This document shows, piece by piece, positions 3,892 through 36,900 of a DNA stretch of 64,000 bases. The notes under the pieces were generated by a model. It was not told the origin of the DNA. It did not search any database and saw only the letters and a program-made list of their open reading frames with translations. The stretch lies in IMG/VR virus record IMGVR_UViG_3300047095_000292, positions 1-64,000 of that record; one strand, given 5' to 3'. The stretch is from a virus. How positions within the stretch are numbered: the stretch's first letter is position 1; every line of letters starts with the position of its first letter. Both the position numbers and the translations under genes were made by a program.

Positions 3892-3977
3892 TATTAAACC
3901 CTCTATAGTCAGAGAAAGAACACCTCATAACACCCGACTGCACTAACATTTGTACACTAGAGTGTATCAACTGCTTG

Positions 3978-4412
3978 TTAAAGCTTACTGTCATTCGCAT
4001 CCGTTATCTCCAATATAAATGGTAATTTCTGCATTATCAGGACAAAGTTGTCCATTGCAGGGCGTGAGAGAAGTAGCGCCTTTTGGTTTCGAATATAGCC
4101 CAGACGTTCTCCGAAAGATATACACCCAAGTAGCTGAGCTTTGTATCCTAACGTAGCATCACCCATAAGGTTCGACGAGTGCAGTCTTATACCGCCACGC
4201 TTAGGAACTTTTTGGACTTCATATGTAAATACTTTAAGCCTTGGCGATAATGTCCAAAGAACAATATAGGTACCTTTAGGAATACAAGAGATATTACTCT
4301 GATTATTTCTATCAGGTAACTCTCCTGTAAACCTTACATGGTCTGGATAATATATCTTTCCAAAGGTGCCTTGATCACTATAATCGAAACGGACTATTTT
4401 GACTTTATTAAT
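3978..4412 (-). CDS. DUF5675-like protein read from a probable AUU start
   Basis: The frame is open from 4439 to 3978 and contains the DUF5675 pattern GTFGKIYYPDHVRFTGELPDR, then ISCIPKGTY, then GGIRLHSSNL and LLGCISFGERLG. The only ATG in frame (4166) would delete half the domain. No GTG or TTG is available. GGGAGC at 4416-4421 lies 4 bases before ATT at 4410-4412, giving 144 residues that begin NKVKIVRFDYSDQGTFG as in the family. The frame is -1 to the upstream gene and overlaps it, so coupled translation is likely. Family function is unknown; it often sits in lysis modules. Confidence 0.6.
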   Translation of the reverse strand: MNKVKIVRFDYSDQGTFGKIYYPDHVRFTGELPDRNNQSNISCIPKGTYIVLWTLSPRLKVFTYEVQKVPKRGGIRLHSSNLMGDATLGYKAQLLGCISFGERLGYIRNQKALLLSRPAMDNFVLIMQKLPFILEITDANDSKL

Positions 4413-4657
4413 ATTAGCTCCCGTTGACCTTCGTCGTCTTCAATACAGTTTATACAGTGATTCCATCCCTGCCAACAAAATAGTACATTAATGAACCATG
4501 CTAATGGTGTAGCAGGGATACGAATCCACACACCATGATCCCCGCGCTGGCACTTGCCCACCCTGGACGAAAATGTCTCGTCGGGATCGCCGCCGATGAT
4601 CGTGTTGATCAGTTGATCGACGGCGAGGAACAGGTTGTGGAAGTAGTCGTACATCAT
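4394..4657 (-). CDS. Conserved phage lysis-region protein, 87 residues
   Basis: Contains LINTIIGGDPDETFSSRVGK and a C-terminal CWQGWNHCINCIEDDEGQR. This resembles a small protein common beside lysis genes of proteobacterial phages and prophages, whose hallmark is GGxPDETxSSR. Function unknown. The start overlaps the methyltransferase stop, and its 3' end overlaps the DUF5675-like frame. GC content is higher than in the genes downstream. Confidence 0.7.
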   Translation of the reverse strand: MMYDYFHNLFLAVDQLINTIIGGDPDETFSSRVGKCQRGDHGVWIRIPATPLAWFINVLFCWQGWNHCINCIEDDEGQRELILIKSK

Positions 4658-6096
4658 TTTCTCGCCACCAGCGTAACGAAACCAAACCGGGCATTCATTA
4701 CCTGAACTTCACGGAAACCGATTCTGTTCAGCACCGCCAGATACCATGTCAGTGGCCTGACCGTCAGCACACCTTTGATCGCATTTACCTTCTCTGCGAT
4801 CTCTGCATCAGACACACCGGCGTTGCGTTTGAAGTCGAGATACAGACTGTTAGCAAGATTTTCACAGTCCATTTTGTCAGTCAGCACCAACACGCCGTTG
4901 TCAATCAGATGGTCGTGTATGGCGGCAAGGTATGCTTCGCGCTCTGGAATGAAGTGCAGTGTCCAGTTCGCCAGTACAGCAGCCCACGACTGCGCAGGGA
5001 AGCTGTCGCTGAGAATGATTCGCTCCGTGTGCTGGCTTTTGTCCGCCATCGCCGCCGATGCTTCAACCCCGTAGGCATCATAGCCTGCGTCGATTAAGCG
5101 CCCTACTGTATAGCCGATGGCGCTGCCCACATCGAGCACCCGACCTGCGCCTTGCAGCGTGCAGTCGAGTATATCAATGCTCATGTCAATCACTCGCTCG
5201 TAGTCAGGGATGTGGGCCAGTGCCTCACGCTGAAACCTGTCTGCGACCGCCGCATCGAATGCCCATGTACCGGCAATGCGCGGCGGCGTTGCGTAAGTGA
5301 TCGGGGTATCTGTTGCCAAAGCTACAACCTGAGCTAGTTCGCGCAGATGTGATCCAGTACGAACAAAGCGCAGGGCGTAGCGGAACGGCACAGTTGATGT
5401 GGTGTCGCGTTCTAGCGGGTCGTGATAGGCGTCATGCACTCGCTTGTCGGTATTCGGTGCAGGCATCAAGGGTTCAGAATAGCCGAAGCCCAACCCCTTC
5501 ATAATCACCTTGAGGGCAGTTGGCGTTAGTCGCGTCCCGGTCGCCTTGAAATACTGGTCGCTGCGGTTGGCCGTCGCTACGTTAATAATCTGTGCATCCT
5601 CGCAGATTTCGATCAGTGCAATACCCTGATCTGCCGTACCCCACGGATACATGGCGTCGATCACCACTTCTTTACTTGATGCTTCCGCGATCAGCTTGAG
5701 AATAGCAAACGGGTCGATGAAGGCATTGATAATTCCGCACGCCAGAACGATGTCGTATTGCTTCGGATTAAGTTCGAGAAAAGCGCGAACATCCTGTCGG
5801 GCGACTTGAAAAGTGTTGGCATTGAGCTGCATGGCAAGAAGTTGCTCAGAGCGATCAGCGTATTCGGGTTGAACTTCAACACCTGTGTAGAAAGTTGCGC
5901 AGTGCGCCATTGCCCACATACCCATTGCGCCAAGGCCGCTACCGAGATCAAGCACAGACTTGCCTTGTACGTCAGGCATGAAAGCCATACAGCGATTGGT
6001 CAGAGATTCTTTCGTCACTGGTGCAAAGGCGCGAGTAGCCCTGTTGTCCTGTTCGACAAACTCAGGAAATCGGTCGAAGAATCTCATTGCAGCCAC
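4654..6096 (-). CDS. Tandem class I SAM-dependent methyltransferase, 480 residues
   Basis: Two Rossmann methyltransferase domains in one chain. Domain 1 (about 25-180) has VLDLGSGLGAMGMWAMA and an acidic GVEVQPE loop. Domain 2 (about 265-420) has RVLDVGSAIGYTVGRLIDAG, then GVEAS, and NWTLHFIPEREAYLAAI as in trans-aconitate-type enzymes. Both SAM-binding loops look intact. The substrate is unknown. The gene follows fibre genes and a cupin-like gene, so modification of a virion or host surface molecule is one idea. GC content is well above that of the tail genes, suggesting recent acquisition. Confidence 0.8.
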   Translation of the reverse strand: MAAMRFFDRFPEFVEQDNRATRAFAPVTKESLTNRCMAFMPDVQGKSVLDLGSGLGAMGMWAMAHCATFYTGVEVQPEYADRSEQLLAMQLNANTFQVARQDVRAFLELNPKQYDIVLACGIINAFIDPFAILKLIAEASSKEVVIDAMYPWGTADQGIALIEICEDAQIINVATANRSDQYFKATGTRLTPTALKVIMKGLGFGYSEPLMPAPNTDKRVHDAYHDPLERDTTSTVPFRYALRFVRTGSHLRELAQVVALATDTPITYATPPRIAGTWAFDAAVADRFQREALAHIPDYERVIDMSIDILDCTLQGAGRVLDVGSAIGYTVGRLIDAGYDAYGVEASAAMADKSQHTERIILSDSFPAQSWAAVLANWTLHFIPEREAYLAAIHDHLIDNGVLVLTDKMDCENLANSLYLDFKRNAGVSDAEIAEKVNAIKGVLTVRPLTWYLAVLNRIGFREVQVMNARFGFVTLVARK

Positions 6097-6584
6097 ATTT
6101 CCACAGCCACAAAGTCCGAACTAGCGATGATCTCGACGGGGCCAGATAGTGCATGAGCGACCAGCGGAGCAGATTTCACGACAGCATTCGCACTGAAGCC
6201 GCCTTTTGCCACGGCGAATGTTGCGCCCTGTCGAATGACGGCACTTTGACCCGCGCTCAACTCGATGCGCCGCGTGCCGTATGGTTTACCCTGCGATGAT
6301 AGACAGAGATAAATGCTGCCATCCTCAAGACTGATAATTGCTCGGTCGCCAATAGGACGCACCGCGTTCAGGTGTGATGAGTAGCCTTGCGACATTTCGA
6401 TGATGCTGGCATCGGGCATGGGGCCGTAAGAGAACCGCCCCGCCATAATCAAGTTGATTGCCGGCATTTTATTGGTTGGCGTCTCGGCTGAAAAGCTGAT
6501 GTCGTAGCGTTCGCCGACCTGACACACGGCTTCAGCAACGTCAAAATCGCCCACTTTCGTAACAACAAAGGCATTGAATTTCAC
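6084..6584 (-). CDS. Hypothetical protein, possible cupin-like fold, 166 residues
   Basis: The segment from about 45 to 135 (RPIGDRAIISLEDGSIYLCL, then IELSAGQSAVIRQGATF) has the strand-turn pattern of small beta-barrel proteins, including a G-x-S-A-V-I-R-x-G turn seen in cupins. No metal-binding His cluster is evident. It overlaps the tandem methyltransferase by 13 bases and the next gene by 4, so the three are co-translated. Function unknown; the fold assignment is tentative. Confidence 0.5.
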   Translation of the reverse strand: MKFNAFVVTKVGDFDVAEAVCQVGERYDISFSAETPTNKMPAINLIMAGRFSYGPMPDASIIEMSQGYSSHLNAVRPIGDRAIISLEDGSIYLCLSSQGKPYGTRRIELSAGQSAVIRQGATFAVAKGGFSANAVVKSAPLVAHALSGPVEIIASSDFVAVEMWLQ

Positions 6585-11325: not shown

Positions 11326-14300
11326 TTATATCACCCCTGTAATCTGATAGCTTGCATTACCACTAACCCTTGCTCCAGCAAGATCAAACAGAAGTATCTT
11401 AAATGAAGTAGGGTTAGGAACATCTGTAAAATCATATATCGCAATCACCGGTGTAGTTGCATTTGCATTTACAGTAATTGATGAGATATCAACAAATGCA
11501 TTCGCAAAGGTAACCATTGTACCGCCGCTATCTGTAGACACGCATGCAATATTACCTGCTTCTTTTATAGTAGTAGAGGATAGCTGCAACTTAAGTGCTT
11601 TCAGTTCTACAACACCTGTACCTGTCACCTCTATTCTTACCTTAACATACCTAAAATTATATAAACCAGCAGAGGTGCCATTGATTGCTGTACTCCATGA
11701 CGAGCCATCTAGTGAACCACTTATATACACTGTTACTATAGGCGTTGGTGTGATAACTGCTGTATTCAATGTTACTAGCGCAGTACTTAATGGAATGTCT
11801 AAAGATGAACCCTCTCCGAGATCAAAGATCTCCTGATGCCAGGATCCATTTACTAATGTGAAGTCAGTGTAGCAATAGACCTCATTATAGTATGAAAGAT
11901 CAACATAATAGTTAGAGGGTGTAACCCCGGAATCCGTAACATCTATATATGTCTCGTCTTGCAAAGAGCTATCAATTTCATTTCGTAATGAGTAATCACG
12001 AGGCGCTGCAACCACCGCAACAGTACTGGCAGGTTCACTACAGTTGCCACCGATGTCAATGGCAGTTACCCAGTACTTAAATATTCCGCCGTTAATTTCA
12101 AATACAGTTGTAAATAAGCCTGACTTTTCCCCGATGTACGTAGATGTAGCATACGTATCTCCTCTTCGTATTTCATGCGTTCGAATAGGTTGATTTGATA
12201 GGCTGGCAGTCCACATTAACAGTACATTATTATCAATAACTTGATTTGTCAGCTCTACAGCAGCTGGTGTATTTACTATTCTAGAAAATGTAGTCTCGTT
12301 TAAGGAATAACGTCCATTTATATCTATTGACTTTATACGATATACATGTGTTGAGGCAAGTAATGGCGGTTGCTGTACTTCTGTCGTTTTTACTGTACAA
12401 ATGTAATCAGATGTCTCCCAAGATGCTCCATTCTCTCTTAGCTCATACTGGGATATTCGAGGACTTGCAACAGCATTCCAATTAACACGTACGCCTGCTT
12501 CAGTAAAGGCTGCAGTTAAACCTGTTACTGCTGCAGGAAGACTGTATGGAATAAACTTTATAGGCCAATTTATTATAGATGGCTTTCTGTCGTCGTAAGT
12601 AACAGGCACTATCGTTACGTAGTAATCTGTGCTATATAAGTCAGGAAAATCATATCGGGTTGCAGTAACTGTACCACGACCAATCCATTCTGTACTAACA
12701 CCCGCATTTACAGCTGCTGTTAATATTTGGTAGCCAATTACTCTATTATCAGTAAGAGCTGGCCATGTAATGTATCCATTAAAGCCATCATCTACGAATA
12801 CAATATCACCTACAGCAACGCTTGTAACATCTGATATAAATATATTTCTAATAGGGGAAAGCTCGTTATCCGCCACATTCCAAGCAAGATCATTTGCATC
12901 ATACTTGTAAGCAGATACTCGTATAACGCCGGTAGCCTCTGGTTTTAGTTCAGTTATCTTTACTAGTTCACCGGGAATATTTAGAATATCTGAGTTAATC
13001 TGTAGAAAATCACCAGGCTCTAAGTGAATGAATTCATGGTTTAGGCTAAAACTATATGTCACGCCAGTTCTACTAGACCTTACCTTCTGCTCTGCCAATG
13101 CTCTGGCATGGTACGATGAAGTACAACCTTCTGCAAACATTTCAAGTTCTAGCGGTAAGCCACTGTCTTGCGCTAAATACGCAGCATATACACTTTCTGT
13201 CTTAGGAGGCCAGAAGACATTATCTTCTTTAAAATCTTTAGCCTCATTCAGATATCTTATCACGCAGTAATTAAAACGAGTACCCGCATTAGGCCAGCTT
13301 ATACTCGTCTGTCCTTCTCTGATTATGTCGTTATCAGAGATATCCGCACTTATAATGTCTTCCCAATAAGTTGTATTGGTCGGCAGGGCTACATTATTGC
13401 TAACCTTTGATCTAAAAAGTCTAGGTCCAGAATCTGTAGTAAATTGCACGACATCGCCGAAGTTATAGGGTATGTATGATGTGAGTGTACTCGCAGGAGT
13501 CGTCGATGTTATATAAGTAGGCGGTGTTTCTACAACCTGTGCTACTGCTGCAGTGAAAGCAACTCCAAAAACTGAGAGGATATCTATTCCAAAGAAAGTG
13601 CTAATTCCTCCAAAGATACCAGTAGGGTCTATAAAGACATCAGGCTGGTTAACAGGGGCGACAGTAGTAGTAGGTAAGATAGTTGTAACAGTTGTGGTTA
13701 CTGGAAACACCTGTGTAATAGATATACCATTAGTACCCCAAATTGTTGGGTAGTTTAGCTTTAGTGAGTATTGCCCAGCTGACCATACTAGCTGTGCATC
13801 TCCCATTGTATTTAATATTATTTCTATATTGTCTCTAAGTGGTTTTGAAGTATCTAAAGCTATATTACACTCGTATAACTTAACGTTTCGGGTACCACCT
13901 TTGTTTCGCCACAAGGCACCCTCAAGCGGTACTGTCATTACTACGCGCTCGCATACTTGAGCTGCTCTATAGAAGGATCCTAGATTAATTTCTGGGCAAT
14001 TATAGGAAGTTCCTGTATTTACGATAGCAAGACCGCGTCCATACGTTGTATCAATAAGATAGTCTAAAAGAACTAATGCAGGATTATTAGAATAATTTCT
14101 TGTAAATGAAATACCATAACCCGACGGATTCTCTCCAGTTGTTCCAATACCACGTATCTTCATACCTTCTACATAGAACTGGGCAGAGGGTACTCCTCCG
14201 AACTGAGGGTCATCACGGTTATAACGATAGATACCTGTCGCATATGCTGTCTTCGTAAATAGCGCAGTAGACCGTGTAGCATCATTTGCAGTAGCGAGTT

Positions 14301-14892
14301 CATCAGCAATATTACCATCAGGATAGATGTGCAGCCTTGCCCCATGCGTGTAAGGATCGATTAGTGTAACACCCGTCTTTAGTGCTCCACTTACTCCGTT
14401 TGCAAAGCGTTCAGATGCTTCATAAATTACGTCATTATACTCGTTAACGTAGTCACCATTTAAATTTCTGTCATCTAGTGAGATTGCGTATGCACCGTTA
14501 ATGCCACCCATACAGATTGCTTGTTGTGCCATTAGAAATTCATGTTTTGACCCAGATATATTGCTATCGAGGCTTGTGCCTGACTGAAACAACTGACCAC
14601 CAGTAGATATACCTTTAGTAGTGTAGCTGTTAAAAGTTGTATGGTACACTCGAACACCACCTACTAATGCTCTACCATATACTACTCTTAGTGAAACAGA
14701 TTCACTAGCTATTACAACCTTTGTACCCTTAGCAGCATCTGCAGCAGCATCCATCGCAGCTTGTTGAGCAGCTGCTCTTGCTTGTGCCTCTTGCTGTGCT
14801 CGTTGTGCTGCTTCTCGTGCATCATCCGCAGCCTGCTGTTGAATAACGTAGGAGACAACTGTTACAACTATCGATGCTACGAAGCTTGACAT
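11326..14892 (-). CDS. Tail-tip / central fibre protein (lambda gpJ-like), 1188 residues
   Basis: The N-terminus has a hydrophobic segment (4-17) and an Ala/Gln-rich helix (18-55). It continues VSLRVVYGRALVGGVRVYHT, as in gpJ/TipJ-type hub proteins. A TipJ-like core extends to about 650 (including ISDNDIIREGQTSISWP). Several fibronectin-III-like repeats follow at about 715-1000 (for example LTAAFTEAGVRVNWNAVASP). The C-terminal 150 residues look like a beta domain. It forms the tail tip and contacts the host. Its start overlaps the cupin-SET gene by 16 bases. Confidence 0.82.
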   Translation of the reverse strand: MSSFVASIVVTVVSYVIQQQAADDAREAAQRAQQEAQARAAAQQAAMDAAADAAKGTKVVIASESVSLRVVYGRALVGGVRVYHTTFNSYTTKGISTGGQLFQSGTSLDSNISGSKHEFLMAQQAICMGGINGAYAISLDDRNLNGDYVNEYNDVIYEASERFANGVSGALKTGVTLIDPYTHGARLHIYPDGNIADELATANDATRSTALFTKTAYATGIYRYNRDDPQFGGVPSAQFYVEGMKIRGIGTTGENPSGYGISFTRNYSNNPALVLLDYLIDTTYGRGLAIVNTGTSYNCPEINLGSFYRAAQVCERVVMTVPLEGALWRNKGGTRNVKLYECNIALDTSKPLRDNIEIILNTMGDAQLVWSAGQYSLKLNYPTIWGTNGISITQVFPVTTTVTTILPTTTVAPVNQPDVFIDPTGIFGGISTFFGIDILSVFGVAFTAAVAQVVETPPTYITSTTPASTLTSYIPYNFGDVVQFTTDSGPRLFRSKVSNNVALPTNTTYWEDIISADISDNDIIREGQTSISWPNAGTRFNYCVIRYLNEAKDFKEDNVFWPPKTESVYAAYLAQDSGLPLELEMFAEGCTSSYHARALAEQKVRSSRTGVTYSFSLNHEFIHLEPGDFLQINSDILNIPGELVKITELKPEATGVIRVSAYKYDANDLAWNVADNELSPIRNIFISDVTSVAVGDIVFVDDGFNGYITWPALTDNRVIGYQILTAAVNAGVSTEWIGRGTVTATRYDFPDLYSTDYYVTIVPVTYDDRKPSIINWPIKFIPYSLPAAVTGLTAAFTEAGVRVNWNAVASPRISQYELRENGASWETSDYICTVKTTEVQQPPLLASTHVYRIKSIDINGRYSLNETTFSRIVNTPAAVELTNQVIDNNVLLMWTASLSNQPIRTHEIRRGDTYATSTYIGEKSGLFTTVFEINGGIFKYWVTAIDIGGNCSEPASTVAVVAAPRDYSLRNEIDSSLQDETYIDVTDSGVTPSNYYVDLSYYNEVYCYTDFTLVNGSWHQEIFDLGEGSSLDIPLSTALVTLNTAVITPTPIVTVYISGSLDGSSWSTAINGTSAGLYNFRYVKVRIEVTGTGVVELKALKLQLSSTTIKEAGNIACVSTDSGGTMVTFANAFVDISSITVNANATTPVIAIYDFTDVPNPTSFKILLFDLAGARVSGNASYQITGVI

Positions 14893-15830
14893 AGTGCCTT
14901 CCTCCCATTAGTCTGTAAGGGTACTCTGTAATTTATGGTAATCTCTTCTCCATTTTTTCCGCCTGTGCAACCTCTAATATCTCTATTTGCTATCAGCAGC
15001 GAATCTCCGTTTTCAAGAAGTAGAATCTCTGCATTAGGTTTAATAGAGTGATTAGTATATCTACCTGCTATTGTTCGTTTACCGTTTATCTTAGCCGGTG
15101 CAATGATATCACCAGCTGCAATATTTGCGGTTGCGAATAACCCCTTACCGGATATAGGTGACTGATCTACTTTTATCTTATAGCTACTCTTAGGTAATCC
15201 TATCATGTCTTCAATTTGATGAGTCTCAGCAAGCGCCGTTTCTTCAGAGATACCAAACTCCTCTAGTACATGTCTATAGTCCTCTCTGTTGACACTCTCT
15301 AGAAGTCTTGCCTTCTCTAATTCAAGCTCCTCAAGTTCTCGCCACTCATCTGTCTTGACTAGAAAATATTCTTCTAGTTTTGAAATATCAGTTTCATCAG
15401 TTGCGTATACATTTAACCAAACCATATCTTCTACTACAAAGCCAATCTTCTTTCCAGGCTTTCCAGTAAACATTGCAGGAGCAATTATATCGCGAAGTGT
15501 GCCATCCTCTGTTATAACTTTTACATGCCCTTTAAGTACTATGTTAAGATGCTCGTAGCGTTGATGATGTCCGATTGCAAACGTATTCTTTGCAGCAGAA
15601 ACCTCTCGGATATATACACCTGGTCCGAAGCTATGTACAACAGGTGCATCAGCTTGTTCTTCAGCAAGTACCGCAGTTTCCAGTGCCGCTAAATACCCAG
15701 CCTTCGATGTATCATATATAACATTATTTAGCTTAAGTCTTACAACCTTATCACCAGCAATCGCAACATCTGTCTTTTTAGTTAATGAGGATAACTTCTT
15801 AGCATTAGATACAATCATGCTTTTCCCCAT
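14877..15830 (-). CDS. Cupin-SET domain fusion protein, 317 residues
   Basis: The N-terminal cupin-like domain (about 60-155) includes FAIGHHQRYEHLNIVLKGHV, with several His that could bind metal. A helical linker follows. The C-terminal SET-like domain (about 215-310) includes SPISGKGLFATANIAAGDII, then GRYTNHSIKPNAEIL, then NRDIRGCTGGKNGEEITINY. The NHS and EEITINY strings match the SET motifs that bind SAM and place the target lysine. It could methylate a lysine of a virion or host protein. It overlaps the tail-tip gene and the preceding tail gene. Confidence 0.75.
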   Translation of the reverse strand: MGKSMIVSNAKKLSSLTKKTDVAIAGDKVVRLKLNNVIYDTSKAGYLAALETAVLAEEQADAPVVHSFGPGVYIREVSAAKNTFAIGHHQRYEHLNIVLKGHVKVITEDGTLRDIIAPAMFTGKPGKKIGFVVEDMVWLNVYATDETDISKLEEYFLVKTDEWRELEELELEKARLLESVNREDYRHVLEEFGISEETALAETHQIEDMIGLPKSSYKIKVDQSPISGKGLFATANIAAGDIIAPAKINGKRTIAGRYTNHSIKPNAEILLLENGDSLLIANRDIRGCTGGKNGEEITINYRVPLQTNGRKALCQAS

Positions 15831-17130: not shown

Positions 17131-20100
17131 CTATCTCTTCGAGCCTCTCTCTCTGTTAACCTGTCCTACACCAACTGCAATCTCAGGTAACATCTTCTGA
17201 ATTTCTGATCGAGTTTGACGGGAGATATCTCCAGTTATATTTATATTAAACACAGATGTTTGTGTTATTGGTTCCTTATTACTTTCCTTAACATTACCTA
17301 AGCTGCCAAGAGCGGGGGCTAATACATCTGCCCCAACAAGGCCACCATCTGCAAATCTAGCAATACTGTTATTATTTATATTCTCTAATAAATTTCTATA
17401 TTTGCTAGCTGCGACAGCATTTACTACGTACTCGCCATTGGAAAGCATTGCAGGAATTGAGTCTGAAGTACCTGAACCTGGTCCATAGATGGAACCACCT
17501 GCTGCGTGTAGTCTAACTGGAGCACCACTAGAGAATATAGGATTTGTATAAGTATCTAAAGTATTTGCTGTAAATCCACCTTGCGGTGTTCCAATAGATG
17601 ATAGCTGTGAACCTCCACCAAACATTCCGCCTTTAAAAGCAATACCTGCTAGGGATACTCCCAAGCCAAGCAAGCTTCCAAAACTCCAACCTCCTTCAGG
17701 TATTTGCATATTATCAGCTTCATACTTAGCATTATCAATCTGCTGTTGCTGAATGCTCATGCTCAGATGTTCGATAGTCTTATCGACAGTTTGGAAGCCC
17801 TTAATTGTTCCCTCAATGGTGGTATTAATACCATTAGCTAACATTTGTGTTTTCTCTTCTAAGCTCTGGTTTACTGTATTTATATTATCAGATAGAAGAG
17901 ATATTGGTTTATTAATATCAGCTATACCAACATTAGAGCTCAGGTTAGCAACAGCAGGACTTGCGGCTATTGAAGGTATTGCAGCTAATGCTTCACCACC
18001 TTCTGCAAAATGAGCGACATTGCCATTATTGATAGCATGCAGTAATGCCTTATTTCTAGCAGTTGCATTCGCATTAACAACGAACTCACCATTGGAGAGC
18101 ATTGCAGGAATTGAGTCTGAGGTACCTGAACCTGGACCTGAGATAGGACCACCTGATGCAAATCCAAAGCTGTTCTTGAACCATCCTCCAACATTATCAA
18201 GCATCTTACCGAGACCACTTGACTCACCCTCACCGAGTCCAATTCCAAAGAATCCACCAACACCTTTTAGTGCATCAAATAGTGCATTCTTCACAGAGAT
18301 TCCGAGTCTTGATAGTGTAGCTAGAAGACCGCCATTACCACTCTCAATATCTTTACCAGCAGCACTCAATGCCATACTCGTATCACCTGCAGCATTATCT
18401 ATTGCGGTTACAACAGAGTCACTTGATGTCTCTACCAATTTAACAGCACTTCCTGCATCAGTTTTTCGAATAGGCTCTCCACCACCAACGCGTACTCCTA
18501 GATCTCTTACACTTCCAAATACAAAGTCTAGCATATTATTTGCAGTAGATCCAAATATTTGCTTAGTAAGTCCATCTACTGCACTCTCTAGTATCTTGGC
18601 GGTAAAGCTATCAATCTGCTGTGTCATGAATGTTTTAAAGGTTATCTTTCCCTTTACTAGCTCTTTCAGACCGGCAGAGAGACCCTCAGTAAAGCTTCTA
18701 GTAACAGCACCTGCTGCAGCTTTTGACTCAGCTGATATTCTTGGAAGATTTGCCATCCAGCCTTTTTCACCATCAATAAGGCCTTCTTTAGTTTTCTCAA
18801 GAAGCTCATTAATATCCTTGACTGCATTAGTATAAAGTGTTCGTTCCCATGCTGGAAGTTTAGGATTTTCAATACGCTTATTATAATCCTCCTTCATGGA
18901 CATCAAATTAAGCGTAGCTTTATATTCCTTCTCACCGAGCTTCTGATACAGACTATCAAATGTCAGACCAGGGACACCAAACTGTGATAAGTTAGGTCCA
19001 TTATTAATAGTCGGTTTAGAACCCTTTACCTCAATTAAGTCCTTATACGACGCAGCAGCAGACGCCAGACCCTCAGCAGCTAGCCTAAATTTTGCTTCCT
19101 TATTGAGAGCTTCTGTTATCTGTTCAGTGGGGACACTCTGAGCTTTCAGCTTTACGGTTAGTTCGTCTACAGTCTTATTGTATAACGCAAGCGAACCTTT
19201 TAACTCATTATATTGATTATTTATCTGATCAAGTGACTTATTACTAATCATTGTATTGATCATTTCTGCAGTAATGTTCTCAGGCAACTTGATATCTATT
19301 GAGGCAAGACCTAAATTACCTTCTCCCCGATTAATAGACTTAGACTGCTTTGACAATTCTTCTGCCATTTTGTCAGTAGTCTCAAATGCAAAAAGGCCTG
19401 GATCACCCTTCATCATATTGCCAAGACCTTCAGTCATTTTACCAAATACTGTAACAGCGGCAGTTTTAAAGAGACTAGCAGCCTTCTCTAAATCACCTGA
19501 CATTAATGCATCACCAATACCGTCAAATAATGCTGTCGCTTTCGCTATCTTAGATTTGACCTTTTCAGCAATTGTAGCAGGTTCATCAGATTTAGATTCA
19601 TTACCTTTAAGCAATGCATACTTTTTAAGTACACTGTCAGCATAGTCAGTTGTCTTGGTACCGCCACCATTTTCCAGATGCTCTTTGTATCCGGGTTTTA
19701 TATTACCTACTGCGTCCAGCGCGTTTGGGCCTCCATGATATACTGCTGCAATCTTAGTAACATTTCCATTATACTTACTGCTCAGGTCTTCCACATGCCT
19801 TAGGGCAGCTTTTACTCTATCTGCCTCTATTTCAAAAGATAATGAACCTCTAAAAAACTCTTTATTAACTCCGTCAAAAGTTTTCTTTATAATTTGGGCA
19901 GTCCCAACAGCGCCTTTCTCACTTATAGCCTCAGGGCCACTTCGCTCTGTTCCTAGGATTGCTTTAAATAATAACTTGATATCCTCGGGTGTGGATGCAG
20001 TAGGACTACCTGTGCTGAACTTGCTAAAAGATATTCCACTATTAATGCTATCTAACAATGCACGGTTTTTCTTAGCTGATTTTGCATTAACAACGAATTC

Positions 20101-23100
20101 ACCATTAGACAACATAGCAGGAATATCATCCGATGTACCTGATCCTGGACCCTGTATAAAACCACCTGTGGCATAGCCAGCGGGAACAATTCCTGATGAA
20201 GATGCGCCTGAAGCAAAGAATGTACCTAGTAATTCAGATGATAAATCCTGTAATACTAATTTCTTTGTAACATCATATGAATCATTTAGATAACCGTCAT
20301 CTACGAAATCTTTAAATATATCTATATAGTTTCCTGTACGTGGATATGGTGGCATTCCTGTCTGCTTATCTAGATAGGAGCGTTGAGCAACAGCTAATCC
20401 CTTTCTAGAGAAATCGGTTATCCATTTAGCATTCTGCAAGGCATAATCAGTAGCTACCCACTCTTCATCCACAGGATTTAGTATATAAGGTACAGTTTTC
20501 ATTAGTCCTTTATACTTTTCTATATCAACATCTGATATCTTGCTAGCTAGAAAGTCTAGAGTAGTTCTCAGAGGAACACCATCAACTTCAGATACACCTT
20601 GTTTTTGTAATTCTAAATTTCTATTATATTCTTGTATAATAACATCACGTTTGATTGTATTCTTATCGATTAAATCTAATATATCAGATGGCATCCGTTT
20701 TTCAAAATCTCTTAGGTGACCTATCTCATGCATACCAATTAAATAGGCTAAATCTAGACCGTTTCCTTCAAACTGCATAGGATCCGGTATATTCAAGATG
20801 CGACTCCACCAGAAATACTTAGAGTCGGCCATATTGCCTAAATAATTTATTTGTCTAGCACCCGTTGCTCTTCCAGTCAAATCGGCTAATGCAGCATTCC
20901 TAGCATCACCTAACGGCATATCTACAAGACCGCCTTCGGCGAATTTAGCTACGCGTCCGCTATTGATAGACTCTAATAGGCTTCTATTCTTTTTAGTAGA
21001 CTTGGCATTTACAACAAATTCACCATTAGATAACAATGCTGGTATAGAATCAGAGGTCTCAGTTCCTGGACCAGTAATATGCCCACCTGATGCCTTCTTA
21101 ATAACACCCTCTGTCTGCGAATCCTTTTGCAGTACTGAGACTTGATTATTAGTAAAGAGAGCACTAAACATCTGATACTTAGAATCTATCCAATTTCCCA
21201 TTGTTGAGAATGTATCCGATATGCTTTTAGTAGTCTTTGTTAATACATTATCAGTCATTAGTACCCATAGTTCATACTGTTTGCTTGACTTACCGTCCTG
21301 TGAAACTACTTTATACTGCTCATTCAAACTCTTAAGTAGTTCAATATAAGTTTCTATGTTTGCATTTGCAGCAGGGATATTGAAACTAATATCACCGTTA
21401 GACTTCGCTGCGGATACTTGATTCTGTAAGACTTTAATTACCCGCATTGTCTCTATCATCTGAGAGTCGTATGCATCAGGTGTAAGATACGCTGTACCGC
21501 CACCACCACCGATCTTACCTACTGAAGTTCTAGATATATCCTTTGGAGGTTCTCCGGTAAGGGCAGCTAGACGTTCCTTCTTACTAGAGCCTGAGCTGTC
21601 CTTATTAGTCCACCAATCTCGCAATGCCTGTACAATAATATTAGCGCCCTGCGTCATTCCATCTACAATTGCATCTAAAAGGAAACCACCAATCATCATA
21701 GCTTCTTTTGGATTAAATATAATAGCAGCTAATAATCCGGCCATTAGAAGCATTGGAGAAGTTAGTGCAGCTATTAACATAGTAGATAATACTGCTGCAC
21801 CTGTGGCACCTACTAACTGGCCAAGGATACCACCTCCTATAATGTAGCCAATCTTACTATACTCAGGCAAGTCTAATCTATCTTTAACATGAGCTTGCCC
21901 TGCTGCAAATCCGGCATAACCTCCAACGAAACCACCTACTGCCGACAATGCTGAGATTGTACCTTGTTTAGCGGTAGACATAGATTCTGCCATCCCTGCG
22001 CGTATCTTGTCAGCATTAGATCTAACAGCGTTAAGCTCAGGTGTTAGCCTTGCTACTTCAGCCTTCGCAGAAGCTACAACAGCAGCAGATATTGCTGGAT
22101 TATTAAGTCTAGCAGTAGCGGCAGTCATAGCCTCACGATGTTGTGCTATTATAGGATTACTCAATGATACCGCAGTAGCATTAGCCTGTGTAGCCCTTGT
22201 AAGAGATTGCAATGACTGTGTATAGACTTTAGCAGCAGCAGCACGTTCAGCAGGATCTGCTGCAGCGCGTTCAGCTTGCTTTAATCTTGTTTCAATACCT
22301 GCTATTCCTGCAAAAGAGGTATTTCCAGGTATCCGATTTAATAATGGCGTACCTTTTTCTATTGCGCTAAGCTCCATCTTCTTTGCAAGGAAACCACCTA
22401 CAGTAGTAGGTGCTGATATAAACTTCATCAAGGCTGGTCCGATTGCTTCTCTATTACTTGAAGAGAATATTACAGCAATGGCACCAACTTTAAGAATCAT
22501 TTCCATTAGGCCTTGCCCAATAGCTAGAGCCTTCTCTCCTGCAGAGTTTGCGCCATCCATCAATCTAGATATAGGTCCAAATATTCCCTCGCCAAAGATG
22601 CCTATCTTAATACTATTTAGTACACTTAACATTGATTTAACAGTAGCTACAAGTGCACTAATAAGAGTATTACTATCAACATTATCAGCCAGCATTTTTG
22701 CAGTAAATGCTGCGCCGCCCACTGCTGCTAGCTTCAGCGGCATCATGGAACCTGTATAATGTGAAACCAATGCACCTACTGCGGTTGCCAAGACAGTAAT
22801 AGCTGCTCCTAGTGATACTGTAGCCTTAACCTGATCTTCAGGCTTAAAGAGACTAATTATATCATGCGCAAAAGGTCGATTCACTTCTGTTCTGTGAATA
22901 CCGAAAGGAACCTTATTTACACCATCACTGTCCTGTATTCCAACTACCTGTCTTATCTTTTTACCTGTATCAGATGTTTGTAACTTCTCTAGCTGATTTG
23001 CAACAAACGGAATATTAGAAATTTTATCAAGAAGCGCTTCATACTTTTCTTTGGTCCAAATAGCTGCAGATCTTACGAAAGCAGCAGTAGCCTCCCCAAG

Positions 23101-25251
23101 ATTAATAATACCATCATAGAGGACAGATCCTGTTGCCTTTAGTGCACTCCATGTCTTAGACAAGATACCTTCACTACTGCTAAATATCTCAGCAAGTGTA
23201 ATAATGTACTTTCCAAAAGCATCAGTTGTGGCTTTAGCATTAGCAATATTAGCAACAGAGGTCTGTTCTGTAGCAAGATTAGAGGCCAGCTGCGGTGTCT
23301 CTATTCTATCAAGTACTACAAGTTTCTTAGCCTTTCTTCGCTTTACTCTTAGTTCCTCATCTTTTGCTAATGTCTGCGCAGCTAGAGTGTCACTAAAATT
23401 ATAGGGCTTAGCCTCTTCTACCTGATCACCTGCTCCACCAACACGTGCCCTTATCATGATTCTGTTTGGATCAGGCGGCAATGCAGCTAGCGCAGCCCTT
23501 ACCTGAGCAGCTGTCATCTTGCTCCAGTCATTATTAGTACGTGTATCTTTTATTTCTTTTATCTTTGTATTAGTCTCAAGTACAGCTGGTGTTATTGTGT
23601 CATTTACCAGAGTAACTTGTTGCACAGTGGGTGTGCTATTCTCGAGCTTCTTGTCAATACTAGTTAACAATGCAGTGGCTTTTGGTGATTCAGTCACAGT
23701 AGCTGTTGCTGTATCTTCAAAGCTAGCAGCAACCGCAGAAGTTATACTATTAACAGTATTTGCATTATTTGCTGCGGTGATTTCTGCAACCTCTTTTAGC
23801 TGAGTTGCCACTATTGTTGCTGTATCCTGCACAGGTACATTTCTTATAGTAGATGTAGAAACATCTGCCATTTGTACCACTTCAGCTAATCGATCAGCTA
23901 TAATTAATGCAGCATCACGGCCTACTCCACTATTTTGTGAAGGTGCGCTAGTTGAAGTAACACCTGTCACTTTAATGTTAGCATCTCGTACTATATCTTT
24001 GAATGTGTCTTTCTTAAACAGACCTATAATACTAGTAAATTTATTAGAGAGTTTATCGAAGATAGTACCAACGTACCCGCTGAAGTCCTCAAAGGCTGAT
24101 ATAACACTACTTATAAAAGAGTTTATAAGTGCTAGCGGTGCATCTGAAAGTTTACCAAACCACTCCACAATCCCATTTACAATATCAGGGATATATGAGT
24201 GTCCAATTAACTTGTCATACAGCCAAGCAAATAGACCTTCTACCTTAGTTGTAAAATTAGTAATTAAAGCTAGTGTATCTGTTATGCCAAAATCAAATTT
24301 AAAGGTCTTTCCAGCAAAGCCGGTAAGTATATCAAAAAAGTCTAGAAACTTCTGCTGCAGACCTCCTATAAGATCCAATACAGGCATCATGGAGTGCAGC
24401 ATTTCTAGCTTAAATGTCTTAGTATCTCTTAAGATTCGCAGTCCGAAGTCTGCAACACCTTTGGCAATATTATTCAAGAATACAGCTATCGGATTATTAG
24501 TGCCAAGAACTTGAAACAGCACTTGACTCCATACAGTCATAGCATTACCCATGTTGTTAAACATAGATGCAAAAGTTACCATCTCTTGCATGTTAGACCG
24601 TATTGCACCGGATTGCTTTAGAATGGCATCAAAGATCTGAGAAGAAGTTAACTTACCTTCTTGACCAAGTGCTCTTAACTTAGCAAATGGGACGTCCATC
24701 CCTCTTGAGATAACACGCGCGAGTTCTGGAATGTTTTCTAAAATTGACCTAAGTTCATCACCTTGCAGTACGCCAGAGCTAAGTGCCTGACCTAGCTGCA
24801 TCACACCTGCAGATGCCTGCTGCGCACCAACACCCGATTGCTTAATAACTAATGCAACGTTTTGAGTAACTTTTAAGGCCTCACTTTGTGTTGCTCCTAG
24901 TGCTTCGGATGCTCTGTTCAACTTAATAAACAGATCACCAATATCCTCAATAGCTGCCCCTGCTTCTACTGCAGTCCTCGCAACGTCCTTAAATGAGCCC
25001 ATTGCACCTGCGGCACTTTTATTAACGCTAAGTAACCTGGCGTTTAGAACAGTTAACTTGTCTGACATATTTACAATAGCAGTTGTGCCTATTGCGAACA
25101 TTGCAATATTCTTAACAGTATTCATCAAGTTGCTGAAACTCATAGACGTTTTGTCTACAGTTCCTGCAATACTTGATACAGCCATTTCTAATTTCTTTAA
25201 GTCAGATTCAGCTTTTTGCGTATTTGCTTGTACATCAATCTGTAGTGCCAT
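17131..25251 (-). CDS. Tape measure protein with embedded metallopeptidase-like and lytic transglycosylase domains, 2706 residues
   Basis: The N-terminus (about 1-260) is a tape-measure domain with LGQALSSGVLQGDELRSILE. Central membrane segments lie at about 800-1250. Four copies of a module GPGxxTSDxIPAxLSNGEFV plus VNA and LLxxINxG start near residues 1394, 1704, 2377 and 2594. Between copies 1 and 2 is HEIGH (about 1508) followed by NPVDEEWVATDYAL, an HExxH-x-E zinc-peptidase pattern. Between copies 2 and 3 (about 1760-1870) is an SLT-type transglycosylase: GTERSGPEAISEKGAVGTAQ and IAAVYHGGPNALD. Tape length predicts a tail of a few hundred nanometres. The enzymes would help cross the cell wall. 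Confidence 0.92.
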   Translation of the reverse strand: MALQIDVQANTQKAESDLKKLEMAVSSIAGTVDKTSMSFSNLMNTVKNIAMFAIGTTAIVNMSDKLTVLNARLLSVNKSAAGAMGSFKDVARTAVEAGAAIEDIGDLFIKLNRASEALGATQSEALKVTQNVALVIKQSGVGAQQASAGVMQLGQALSSGVLQGDELRSILENIPELARVISRGMDVPFAKLRALGQEGKLTSSQIFDAILKQSGAIRSNMQEMVTFASMFNNMGNAMTVWSQVLFQVLGTNNPIAVFLNNIAKGVADFGLRILRDTKTFKLEMLHSMMPVLDLIGGLQQKFLDFFDILTGFAGKTFKFDFGITDTLALITNFTTKVEGLFAWLYDKLIGHSYIPDIVNGIVEWFGKLSDAPLALINSFISSVISAFEDFSGYVGTIFDKLSNKFTSIIGLFKKDTFKDIVRDANIKVTGVTSTSAPSQNSGVGRDAALIIADRLAEVVQMADVSTSTIRNVPVQDTATIVATQLKEVAEITAANNANTVNSITSAVAASFEDTATATVTESPKATALLTSIDKKLENSTPTVQQVTLVNDTITPAVLETNTKIKEIKDTRTNNDWSKMTAAQVRAALAALPPDPNRIMIRARVGGAGDQVEEAKPYNFSDTLAAQTLAKDEELRVKRRKAKKLVVLDRIETPQLASNLATEQTSVANIANAKATTDAFGKYIITLAEIFSSSEGILSKTWSALKATGSVLYDGIINLGEATAAFVRSAAIWTKEKYEALLDKISNIPFVANQLEKLQTSDTGKKIRQVVGIQDSDGVNKVPFGIHRTEVNRPFAHDIISLFKPEDQVKATVSLGAAITVLATAVGALVSHYTGSMMPLKLAAVGGAAFTAKMLADNVDSNTLISALVATVKSMLSVLNSIKIGIFGEGIFGPISRLMDGANSAGEKALAIGQGLMEMILKVGAIAVIFSSSNREAIGPALMKFISAPTTVGGFLAKKMELSAIEKGTPLLNRIPGNTSFAGIAGIETRLKQAERAAADPAERAAAAKVYTQSLQSLTRATQANATAVSLSNPIIAQHREAMTAATARLNNPAISAAVVASAKAEVARLTPELNAVRSNADKIRAGMAESMSTAKQGTISALSAVGGFVGGYAGFAAGQAHVKDRLDLPEYSKIGYIIGGGILGQLVGATGAAVLSTMLIAALTSPMLLMAGLLAAIIFNPKEAMMIGGFLLDAIVDGMTQGANIIVQALRDWWTNKDSSGSSKKERLAALTGEPPKDISRTSVGKIGGGGGTAYLTPDAYDSQMIETMRVIKVLQNQVSAAKSNGDISFNIPAANANIETYIELLKSLNEQYKVVSQDGKSSKQYELWVLMTDNVLTKTTKSISDTFSTMGNWIDSKYQMFSALFTNNQVSVLQKDSQTEGVIKKASGGHITGPGTETSDSIPALLSNGEFVVNAKSTKKNRSLLESINSGRVAKFAEGGLVDMPLGDARNAALADLTGRATGARQINYLGNMADSKYFWWSRILNIPDPMQFEGNGLDLAYLIGMHEIGHLRDFEKRMPSDILDLIDKNTIKRDVIIQEYNRNLELQKQGVSEVDGVPLRTTLDFLASKISDVDIEKYKGLMKTVPYILNPVDEEWVATDYALQNAKWITDFSRKGLAVAQRSYLDKQTGMPPYPRTGNYIDIFKDFVDDGYLNDSYDVTKKLVLQDLSSELLGTFFASGASSSGIVPAGYATGGFIQGPGSGTSDDIPAMLSNGEFVVNAKSAKKNRALLDSINSGISFSKFSTGSPTASTPEDIKLLFKAILGTERSGPEAISEKGAVGTAQIIKKTFDGVNKEFFRGSLSFEIEADRVKAALRHVEDLSSKYNGNVTKIAAVYHGGPNALDAVGNIKPGYKEHLENGGGTKTTDYADSVLKKYALLKGNESKSDEPATIAEKVKSKIAKATALFDGIGDALMSGDLEKAASLFKTAAVTVFGKMTEGLGNMMKGDPGLFAFETTDKMAEELSKQSKSINRGEGNLGLASIDIKLPENITAEMINTMISNKSLDQINNQYNELKGSLALYNKTVDELTVKLKAQSVPTEQITEALNKEAKFRLAAEGLASAAASYKDLIEVKGSKPTINNGPNLSQFGVPGLTFDSLYQKLGEKEYKATLNLMSMKEDYNKRIENPKLPAWERTLYTNAVKDINELLEKTKEGLIDGEKGWMANLPRISAESKAAAGAVTRSFTEGLSAGLKELVKGKITFKTFMTQQIDSFTAKILESAVDGLTKQIFGSTANNMLDFVFGSVRDLGVRVGGGEPIRKTDAGSAVKLVETSSDSVVTAIDNAAGDTSMALSAAGKDIESGNGGLLATLSRLGISVKNALFDALKGVGGFFGIGLGEGESSGLGKMLDNVGGWFKNSFGFASGGPISGPGSGTSDSIPAMLSNGEFVVNANATARNKALLHAINNGNVAHFAEGGEALAAIPSIAASPAVANLSSNVGIADINKPISLLSDNINTVNQSLEEKTQMLANGINTTIEGTIKGFQTVDKTIEHLSMSIQQQQIDNAKYEADNMQIPEGGWSFGSLLGLGVSLAGIAFKGGMFGGGSQLSSIGTPQGGFTANTLDTYTNPIFSSGAPVRLHAAGGSIYGPGSGTSDSIPAMLSNGEYVVNAVAASKYRNLLENINNNSIARFADGGLVGADVLAPALGSLGNVKESNKEPITQTSVFNINITGDISRQTRSEIQKMLPEIAVGVGQVNRERGSKR

Positions 25252-33900: not shown

Positions 33901-36900
33901 AGCCGCAGAATAATCACCTCCTAAGTATTCGTTTATCTTAGACATCTCTAAAGCAAACCGTAGGACTTTTCCCTGTTCCTCTCCGTCGATCTCCTGTAAA
34001 AATTTTGATTCTAATATTTTGCGTATATCATTAGGCTTACCACGACGCATCTGATCACCAAGTTGTATCATGTCTTTGCGCCACAGTGTAGCAATCTGTT
34101 GTCTACCAAGTACTGATAGCGAGTTATACCTGTCTTCTAGATGATCAGATGCTCCACCTAGAAAGGCTCCTATCTGGTCCTGGAAGTTAGCAAACTCAAT
34201 ATCGCTAAAGTTCTTAGCCTGCGCCGTGTTTAAAAACGGTCTACGTTTATGTTCAACAGTATTCGTTAGATACTGCCAGTACTTACCAAGCATTGTTATT
34301 GTTTAATAGTTTTTCCAGGTCTTACCAGATATAATGCCAGAGATAGTGCCGCTATGCACATTATAATCTCTGCCAATAGAAGCTAAACTTTCTCCAAGTT
34401 CGTGTCTAGTTCGTATATCTGGAATATCCTTACCTGATAGTTTTTTCTCACATATGCTACTTTTAGGACTCTTAGCTGGAAACACTAAGTCTGGTCTAAC
34501 TTGTTTCCATGTATCCAAGGTTCGTATCTTAGATATTGTTCCTTTATTAACACCAAACAGCAATCCTATTTCGGTATTATTTAACTCATATTCTACAAAT
34601 AGCTTTTTAATATTTTCGACATTCTCTTCATTTAGAACAGCTATGTATGTATCCGAACCAGAAACGCACATATCATTTGACCAAGCGTGTTTCATATTAT
34701 CTACATGCGAAAGCCATTCTAAGTTTTCTACTCGATTATCCGTTTTCACTCCATTGATATGATTAACTTCAAGTGATAGATCTTTATTTTCTATAAACGT
34801 TATTGCAACCAGACGATGCACTGCAATCGTAATATCATCTATATTTACAGCTAGATAACCTTTGCAGTTATCTTTAACTTTTAGCAGTTTCTCACTTTTA
34901 TTCGACCATACATTTCCTAGAGTGCTAATTAAATACTGCGTATTCTTATACTGTTTCCAAATTTCTGTCATGTTAATCTTCCATGTCGTGCTTGGCAGCA
35001 CTTCTGCAATTTCGTTTCCTTATATGCAGACCAGACTATATCATCACCGCTGTCATAACAGTACGGTGTTGCGCGCTTCCATCGGACTTCCGATGTACTC
35101 CCGTAGGATAGTCGTTGAACCTTCAAATTCATTTCTGAATAAGCTTGGCTGCTGATTGTCCATTAACGTATGGAGTTTCCAGCAATTCACGCAATTTTCG
35201 ATGTATATTACTATACAAAGCTTCTGATAACAAAAGTTTCTCCGCTTTGAGGCCCAATAAAGCCTCGTTCATATATACGTGCGCGATGATCTAGGAAGGG
35301 ATGATTGCTGAATGCAACATCCTTTGTCCTAAGCCATTTCATTGACTTAAGCCTCTCATATGCATCACCACGTTCAATCATATACTCACGATACTTGTTC
35401 AAATCATTGTAATACTTAGCTGCACCCTTATCATCTTGAAAGTTTATAAGCTTCTCAATGAAATCATGAAAGTCTGGATCTACCTTGTATTTTGCTGACG
35501 CTGCCCAATTAAGAGCCCTTGTCATATCTTTATCAATTAACTTGGCAGGGAAATCGCTAAAGGAACTTGTAGATGTAATAGGAATTCGAGTATCCATTAG
35601 TCCATACATACCCCTATCAACAAAGTATGTTTTATAGCCCTCACGTATCAAGAGTCTATTACTATCTACAGTAACACCAACACGAAGACCCACATCTACC
35701 TTTCGAGTAAGTCTAGCATACTCTTGAATCCTGGGATCTACAATTCGTAGATTCACTGAGAATGTATCATAGTATGGACCAAAATATGCTCCAAAGTTTC
35801 TACTCTTCATTCTACGTTTCTGTACGCCAAAGGTCTCTAATTCATAGAAGCCCTTACCATGCGCGTCATCTAACAGCTTTACTCCAAGATTATACCATTC
35901 GTTACGGCTACCACGATAGTTAGCCATATTATATAAGTCACGGCCTAGTGCAACTGCTAATTGGTCTCTATCAGGTGAGTCTGCTAGACTAAGACGCCTT
36001 GCAAACTTTAAATAGAAATTATCCAACTGTTCATCATCTAGCCTTATCTTTAATTTAGCGGGTAGCCTGAAGTCTAGTATGTTACGTAACTCTTTAGCGA
36101 TCTTCGGAGCAGTGCGATCTTCCCATTTATTCTTAGCAATTATATTAGAAATAAAGTTATCATGTAGCTCTTGTAACTGAGTTGGACCAAGAACTGGATC
36201 AATATAATTAGCTTGCTTTAATTTGAAAAGAAGATTAGCATCTTTTCTAATTTGAGTCTCGATATAATCAGATACGTTCATAATATCAAACTTAATCTGA
36301 CCTTGTAAGACAGCCTTCATGTTAGTCCATGGCTCTTTGTTATCACGAAAACGCCCAAAAGTTATCCGGAGATTTTCAGTAATTACTGCCCTCTCGTTAA
36401 CACCCATGTGATCTTCAAGGCCATCTACAAAGTTCTTAATGAACTCTTTATCTCTAGGTAGAAGAGACTCACTCTCATCTACAAGTTTATACGTATTACG
36501 CAATGTATCAGGACTTGGTTGGTACATACGGGAATCATCGTACCTGCCAGTGATCGGATTATATTTTAAATTCTCTTCTCTAGGTGGTGATCCAAGTACT
36601 CTTGCCTTAGTATTCTTTTTATTATGTAGTAAAGTGCCTCGATAATTCGTAAGAGAAAGCGTACCATCTAGCTCTCCTGATTGCAATATGTAATATTCTT
36701 TAAGAGCTTTCTGGAGTTCCTTATTGTCATAAAATTCATCAGGTCTTGCTGCACCTAACTTAATTACATCCAGTCTCTCCTTCGCCAACGCGAATCTTCG
36801 AGTGTCACCTGGAATTCCATACCCAGAGTCAGTAAGACCTCTAAGCTCTCTAATCCCGACGCTATTGCCGCCTGCATTAGAGAACTTGTCCAAGGTAAGC

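Follow-up and report, generated by a model that had tools for sequence, protein, structure and literature searches.

Does a phage tape measure protein that carries an HExxH motif close to a lytic transglycosylase domain hold a genuine peptidase, and what do the repeated modules around these domains do? These questions are raised by a stretch of 64,000 nucleotides, referred to here as the window, within a 91.9-kb virus record (IMGVR_UViG_3300047095_000292). A sequence-only reading had proposed that four near-identical modules act in one tape measure as plug-in joints for enzymatic cargo, both peptidase-like and glycan-cleaving, and had called this combination uncommon.

The Tape Measure Protein and Its Modules

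The protein in question has 2706 aa and is encoded by a single intact ORF (17131-25251, minus strand, as are all window features below). It matches many PHROG tape-measure families and belongs to the Pfam family TMP_3 (PF20155; E 7e-46), the match covering an N-terminal tape-measure domain at aa 58-241 (24529-25080, 156.8 bits). Two TM-like stretches (aa 810-830 and 1146-1180) are followed in the C-terminal half by module 1, the HExxH domain (hereafter the zincin), module 2, the SLT domain, a helical stretch, modules 3 and 4, and the C-terminus. The C-terminal segment INITGDISRQTRSEIQKMLPEIAVGV... (17143-17253) recurs in eight other module-bearing tape measures; it occupies the position of the baseplate coiled coil in other siphophage tape measures and, by position only, may have the role described for that element in JBD30 (PMC11445458) and T5 (PMC10038345). 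The genes for terminase, portal, head-morphogenesis and major head proteins lie upstream of the tape measure gene, and the gene that follows downstream weakly matches a distal tail protein. The window also encodes a tail-fibre-like protein downstream of the tape measure with a C-terminal SET-domain match (14877-15830, E 2e-6), a tail host-specificity protein with a HEFIH sequence that may be due to chance (13024-13038), an 883-aa head-morphogenesis protein of the Mu F type whose C-terminal extension of about 600 aa has no Pfam match (35211-37862), and a 480-aa protein with two methyltransferase domains (4654-6096).

The four modules, delimited by alignment A1 and an HMM, lie at aa 1382-1440 (20932-21108), 1689-1748 (20008-20187), 2359-2418 (17998-18177) and 2578-2636 (17344-17520), with the GPGxxTSD motif at aa 1394, 1701, 2372 and 2590 (21049-21072, 20128-20151, 18115-18138 and 17461-17484, respectively); two of them fall outside the range covered by the sequence-only reading (19630-21080). 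The repeats are clear, yet "near-identical" overstates their likeness, as copy 1 shares 64, 63 and 58% of its residues with copies 2, 3 and 4, respectively, in an alignment of about 60 aa in which 27 columns are invariant. The family, of which copy 1 is a hook-like member, matches by sequence two tape measures with PDB entries, those of JBD30 (residues 1016-1056) and Douge (963-1012 and 1411-1461), with E-values of 8e-24 and 7e-15. The JBD30 match spans most of a hook predicted at 1022-1066 by the authors of that work, who propose a cut at 1066, with the hook then holding the tape measure in the baseplate (PMC11445458). We treat this hook as predicted, because the maps of the Douge (PMC13033339) and JBD30 (PMC11445458) tape measures trace only short C-terminal ends. 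JBD30 has one such region and Douge two copies, compared with four in the window, where enzymes occupy two intervals between modules, whereas the JBD30 authors identified no peptidase motif (PMC11445458). A segment of T5 pb2 considered as a possible module homologue was dropped, since pb2 did not match the module profile.

The HExxH Domain: Relatives and Predicted Fold

The HEIGH motif (aa 1508-1512, 20716-20730) lies between modules 1 and 2, with a DEEW motif downstream, exactly where the sequence-only reading had placed it. H1508, E1509 and H1512 would form the zinc-binding and catalytic motif, and an Asp (D1515) is found three residues past it. DEEW (aa 1595-1598, 20458-20469) opens the sequence DEEWVATDYA (20440-20469) on a second predicted helix, in which the second Glu, E1597, within E-x-x-A-x-x-Y-A, is the candidate third zinc ligand. 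The GC content of the domain is 0.352 versus about 0.40.

No direct homologue of the 257-aa domain turned up in searches of viral contigs, bacterial genomes, cultured phages, Pfam or PHROGs, and the PDB gave no significant match. Because the domain lacks near relatives, we turned to three baits that do not select on HExxH, namely the modules, the major head protein and the SLT domain. The tape measures with HExGH found in this way were those of loci L042, L098/L099/L171, L198, L199, L233, L247 and L248; that of L199 contains a tandem pair of zincin domains between two modules (5133-6293). L271 and the L256/L275/L299 group came from a pattern scan and are thus motif-selected. In an alignment of seven tape-measure zincins (A4), comprising the window domain and six others found via module, head-protein or SLT baits, H1508, E1509, G1511, H1512, D1515, E1597 and A1600 are invariant; in alignment A6, the HEIGH ligand and catalytic residues are again invariant, and E1597 and A1600 are conserved to at least 90%. 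Identity between the window zincin and the other tape-measure zincins is 19-29%. In a translated search, the window domain matched both motif regions of L233 (best E 2e-4) and of L199 (best E 4e-4), and the alignment with L233 (30% identity over 184 aa) scored 123, compared with a maximum of 64 after shuffling. The ligand set shared by seven domains and the matches to L233 and L199 argue that the window domain is, at the sequence level, a diverged member of a recurrent family and no chance occurrence of HExxH. The Asp is absent from L042 and L247, which are less certain members.

A4 was too divergent for scanning, a scan with alignment A5 recovered the contig of L233 and nothing else, and the pattern HE.GHLRD[FY] returned Mu-F-type head-protein fusions and a single further protein, but no domain of the window type. 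Mu-F-type head proteins with a C-terminal zincin-like HEIGHLRDY end are encoded in L084, L085 and L086. The tape measures of the nearest named phages, EBPR siphovirus 1 and DSS3_VP1, are without HExxH, and the zincins of L098, L233 and L275 had no match among cultured phages.

An AlphaFold2 model of aa 1448-1679 (20215-20910), built on 26 sequences, reached a pLDDT of 71.4 and a pTM of 0.70, with 10-residue blocks of about 90 at HExxH and just past E1597; a single-sequence prediction (pLDDT 35) was discarded. Motif patterns served to choose 17 of the 26 sequences, so that conservation in this alignment is partly by construction, most of its non-tape-measure rows being pattern-selected. In model numbering, the prediction comprises a helix (2-14), three strands (20-24, 31-33 and 38-42), a helix (49-72) bearing HEIGH at 61-65, and a helix (146-160) bearing E1597 at 150. 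It therefore displays the features expected of a zincin fold, namely an N-terminal helix and three strands, HExxH in a helix, and a Glu on a second helix. Conserved ligands and predicted core together make a genuine metallopeptidase of the gluzincin type the most likely identity of the HExxH stretch, in line with the peptidase-like nature first ascribed to it; as far as sequence and model reach, the HExxH helix is not lodged in an unrelated fold without ligands. Foldseek gave no significant match for the modelled domain, the best PDB entries being the minigluzincins selecase and abylysin (E 1.5-2.8).

With respect to family placement, the window domain shares the pattern HExGHxxD ... ExxAxxF/YA with the ATLF-like/Pro-Pro endopeptidase (M34-like) group, PDB chains of which are matched by the A6 profile with E-values down to 2e-9, largely through pattern-selected rows, versus about 0.06 for a tape-measure-only profile. 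The metallopeptidase (MPTase) domains of phage polyvalent proteins likewise have HExxH, a third-ligand Glu on a second helix and a variable insert between the two helices (PMC5512222). We rejected membership in the ATLF-like (M34) family because the window domain itself has no Pfam match, and in the polyvalent-protein MPTase family (PF18818) because there is no PF18818 match and the carrier is a TMP_3 tape measure with modules, whereas the zincin-like MPTases of PMC5512222 reside in polyvalent proteins. Given that the A6 match is carried by pattern-selected rows, we call the domain gluzincin-type and file it in neither family.

Enzymatic Cargo around the Modules

The second enzyme also proved to be where the sequence-only reading had it, after module 2: Pfam PF01464 matches aa 1761-1848 (19708-19971) with 27.2 bits, above the gathering cut-off of 21.3, which identifies a GH23-type SLT lytic transglycosylase domain. 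Within it, TERSGPEAISEKGAVGTAQI (aa 1768-1787) has the shape of the E-S-x...S-x-x-GA-x-G-x-x-Q-I motif, the Glu of which is the candidate catalytic residue. This domain is 65.7% identical to the SLT domain of L171, which likewise follows a module-zincin-module block.

To what extent is such an arrangement general? Among 134 clusters of module-bearing tape measures, a set that contains the loci from all three bait scans and involved no selection on HExxH, HExGH occurs eight times (in seven tape measures) in the 56,245 aa that follow the first module and never in the 133,905 aa that precede it; with shuffled residues, 0.01 would be expected on average. Seven have a module on either side, and the eighth belongs to L198, whose contig ends early. 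No HExxH was found in 80 module ORFs from bacterial genome contigs. Pfam matches in 62 between-module segments included SLT (3), phage lysozyme (3), pesticin-type lysozyme (2) and GH108 (2), as well as single peptidoglycan-binding repeats or domains (CW_7, LysM), an HAD-type phosphatase and weak zincin families, among them weak PF18818 and DUF6782 matches in some segments; since these families overlap within segments, the numbers do not add up to an exact segment count. No peptidoglycan-directed Pfam match was obtained in 38 control segments, each comprising the 400 aa that immediately precede the first module. Enzymatic cargo thus lies preferentially between or after modules, as had been suggested. 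A DFDDTL stretch, HAD-like by eye, is found in a between-module segment of L043 (10172-11503).

The cargo itself differs between tape measures. L098 and L171 have the same order of module, zincin, module and SLT as the window with a different zincin, and between the window and L171 the SLT domains are 66% identical, compared with only 33% for the N-terminus and a zincin alignment that does not exceed the shuffle level. At the sequence level, this cargo is a mosaic exchanged between tape measures. L174 has a different cargo of about 336 aa (3927-4934) ahead of SLT, where the window has its zincin. Because other uncultured phages put different predicted protein-cutting enzymes in the same type of slot, these tails seem to possess exchangeable slots for entry enzymes. 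The SLT domain of L173, however, lies outside its module pair, and the slot is therefore a tendency and not a rule. Moreover, a single module was found in 91 of the 134 viral clusters, some of which are cut short where the contig or locus stops, and in 75 of the 80 module ORFs of bacterial genome contigs (prophages or prophage-like regions). The preponderance of single modules and the position of the L173 SLT domain, together with the match to the predicted JBD30 hook and the two copies in Douge, indicate that the basic job of the module is probably structural, as a baseplate hook, and that cargo was added around it. Of the plug-in joint idea, the preferential placement of cargo stands, but mostly single modules and the L173 exception speak against joining as the modules' general purpose.

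A Putative Entry Peptidase

What could a gluzincin do in such a tail? With middling confidence, we propose that it is a zinc metallopeptidase that the tail delivers and that works alongside the transglycosylase during entry. The tape measure would be the carrier of these enzymes; upon opening of the baseplate, its C-terminal half would leave the tail first, by extrapolation from JBD30, T5 and Douge, and because of this C-terminus-first exit known from the literature, the enzymes would reach the envelope ahead of the channel-forming part. The SLT domain, judging by its Pfam family, would cut wall glycan, and the zincin, as an HExxH+E zinc metallopeptidase, would cleave an adjacent peptide bond of the envelope, in a host envelope protein or a wall-associated peptide, clearing the way for the tape-measure channel and the DNA. 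For the zincin, we infer that it binds metal and is active, and likewise when, where and on what it acts; candidate substrates are an envelope protein, a wall peptide or the tape measure itself. The neighbouring wall hydrolases favour the envelope as its site of action. Proteins, and not peptidoglycan, are the usual targets of HExxH gluzincins, and this neighbourhood may therefore mislead about the substrate.

The strongest rival, which we nevertheless consider unlikely, is that the zincin cuts its own tape measure near the modules during maturation or ejection, which would release the SLT domain along with other cargo, while fragments ending in hooks would stay in the baseplate. Tape measures of T5 and lambda are indeed cleaved in morphogenesis; in T5 pb2 the cut follows R1127 and separates the hydrophobic stretch from the enzymatic motif (PMC10038345), the cut predicted in JBD30 falls directly past the hook (PMC11445458), and autoprocessing has been proposed for polyvalent-protein zincins (PMC5512222). 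However, most module-bearing tape measures are without a zincin, no conserved basic residue suggestive of cleavage precedes the modules, and pb2, as noted above, did not match the module profile. Quite improbable, in our view, is an effector injected into the cytoplasm that would cut a host protein early, as proposed for the polyvalent-protein zincins. These have an N-terminal helix, three strands and two helices, one set also bearing an Asp three residues past HExxH (PMC5512222), features that the window domain reproduces, and the weak PF18818 and DUF6782 matches of some cargo segments point the same way; yet the neighbours here are tape-measure and peptidoglycan-directed domains instead of the nucleic-acid domains of polyvalent proteins, and tape measures are described as acting mainly in the envelope. 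That the zincin has decayed into a catalytically dead spacer kept for length or structure, as its strong divergence might suggest, is highly improbable because the predicted ligand and catalytic residues are all intact and invariant across divergent copies.

An entry peptidase beside a glycanase, the reading we prefer, would not be the first of its kind. The endopeptidase of the Bacillus protein CwlP belongs to M23, for which the window tape measure has no Pfam match. CwlP (YomI), from prophage SP-beta, resembles the window protein in combining glycan-cleaving (lysozyme) and endopeptidase domains in one large tail protein, but its endopeptidase is of another type, a DD-endopeptidase as opposed to an HExxH gluzincin (PMC5380687). 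T5 pb2, like the window protein, has a hydrophobic stretch followed by an enzyme-bearing C-terminal part, in its case described as a muralytic metallopeptidase motif, and its C-terminus lies in the baseplate (PMC10038345); unlike the window domain, pb2 is without HExxH, one pb2 record annotating an M14-type match. In view of these precedents, "uncommon" was an overstatement, and the unusual features are the peptidase type, an HExxH gluzincin, and its slot delimited by modules. In the open-access literature on tape measures with zincins, we found nothing of this kind, and the gluzincin variant of a peptidase-plus-glycanase tape measure appears to be undescribed. As a long shot, tandem baseplate-hook modules might, as a general feature of environmental siphophages, frame exchangeable entry enzymes such as zincins, transglycosylases and lysozymes, some zincins cutting the tape at the hooks so that each hook would anchor or release an enzyme in turn during expulsion of the tape.

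These data place a predicted gluzincin-type peptidase in the cell-entry machinery of uncultured siphophages and tie it to a putatively structural module. They make testable both the processing of tape measures and the way in which phages come to equip their tails with differing sets of entry enzymes, and the modules may be used as markers for unknown entry enzymes in metagenomes.
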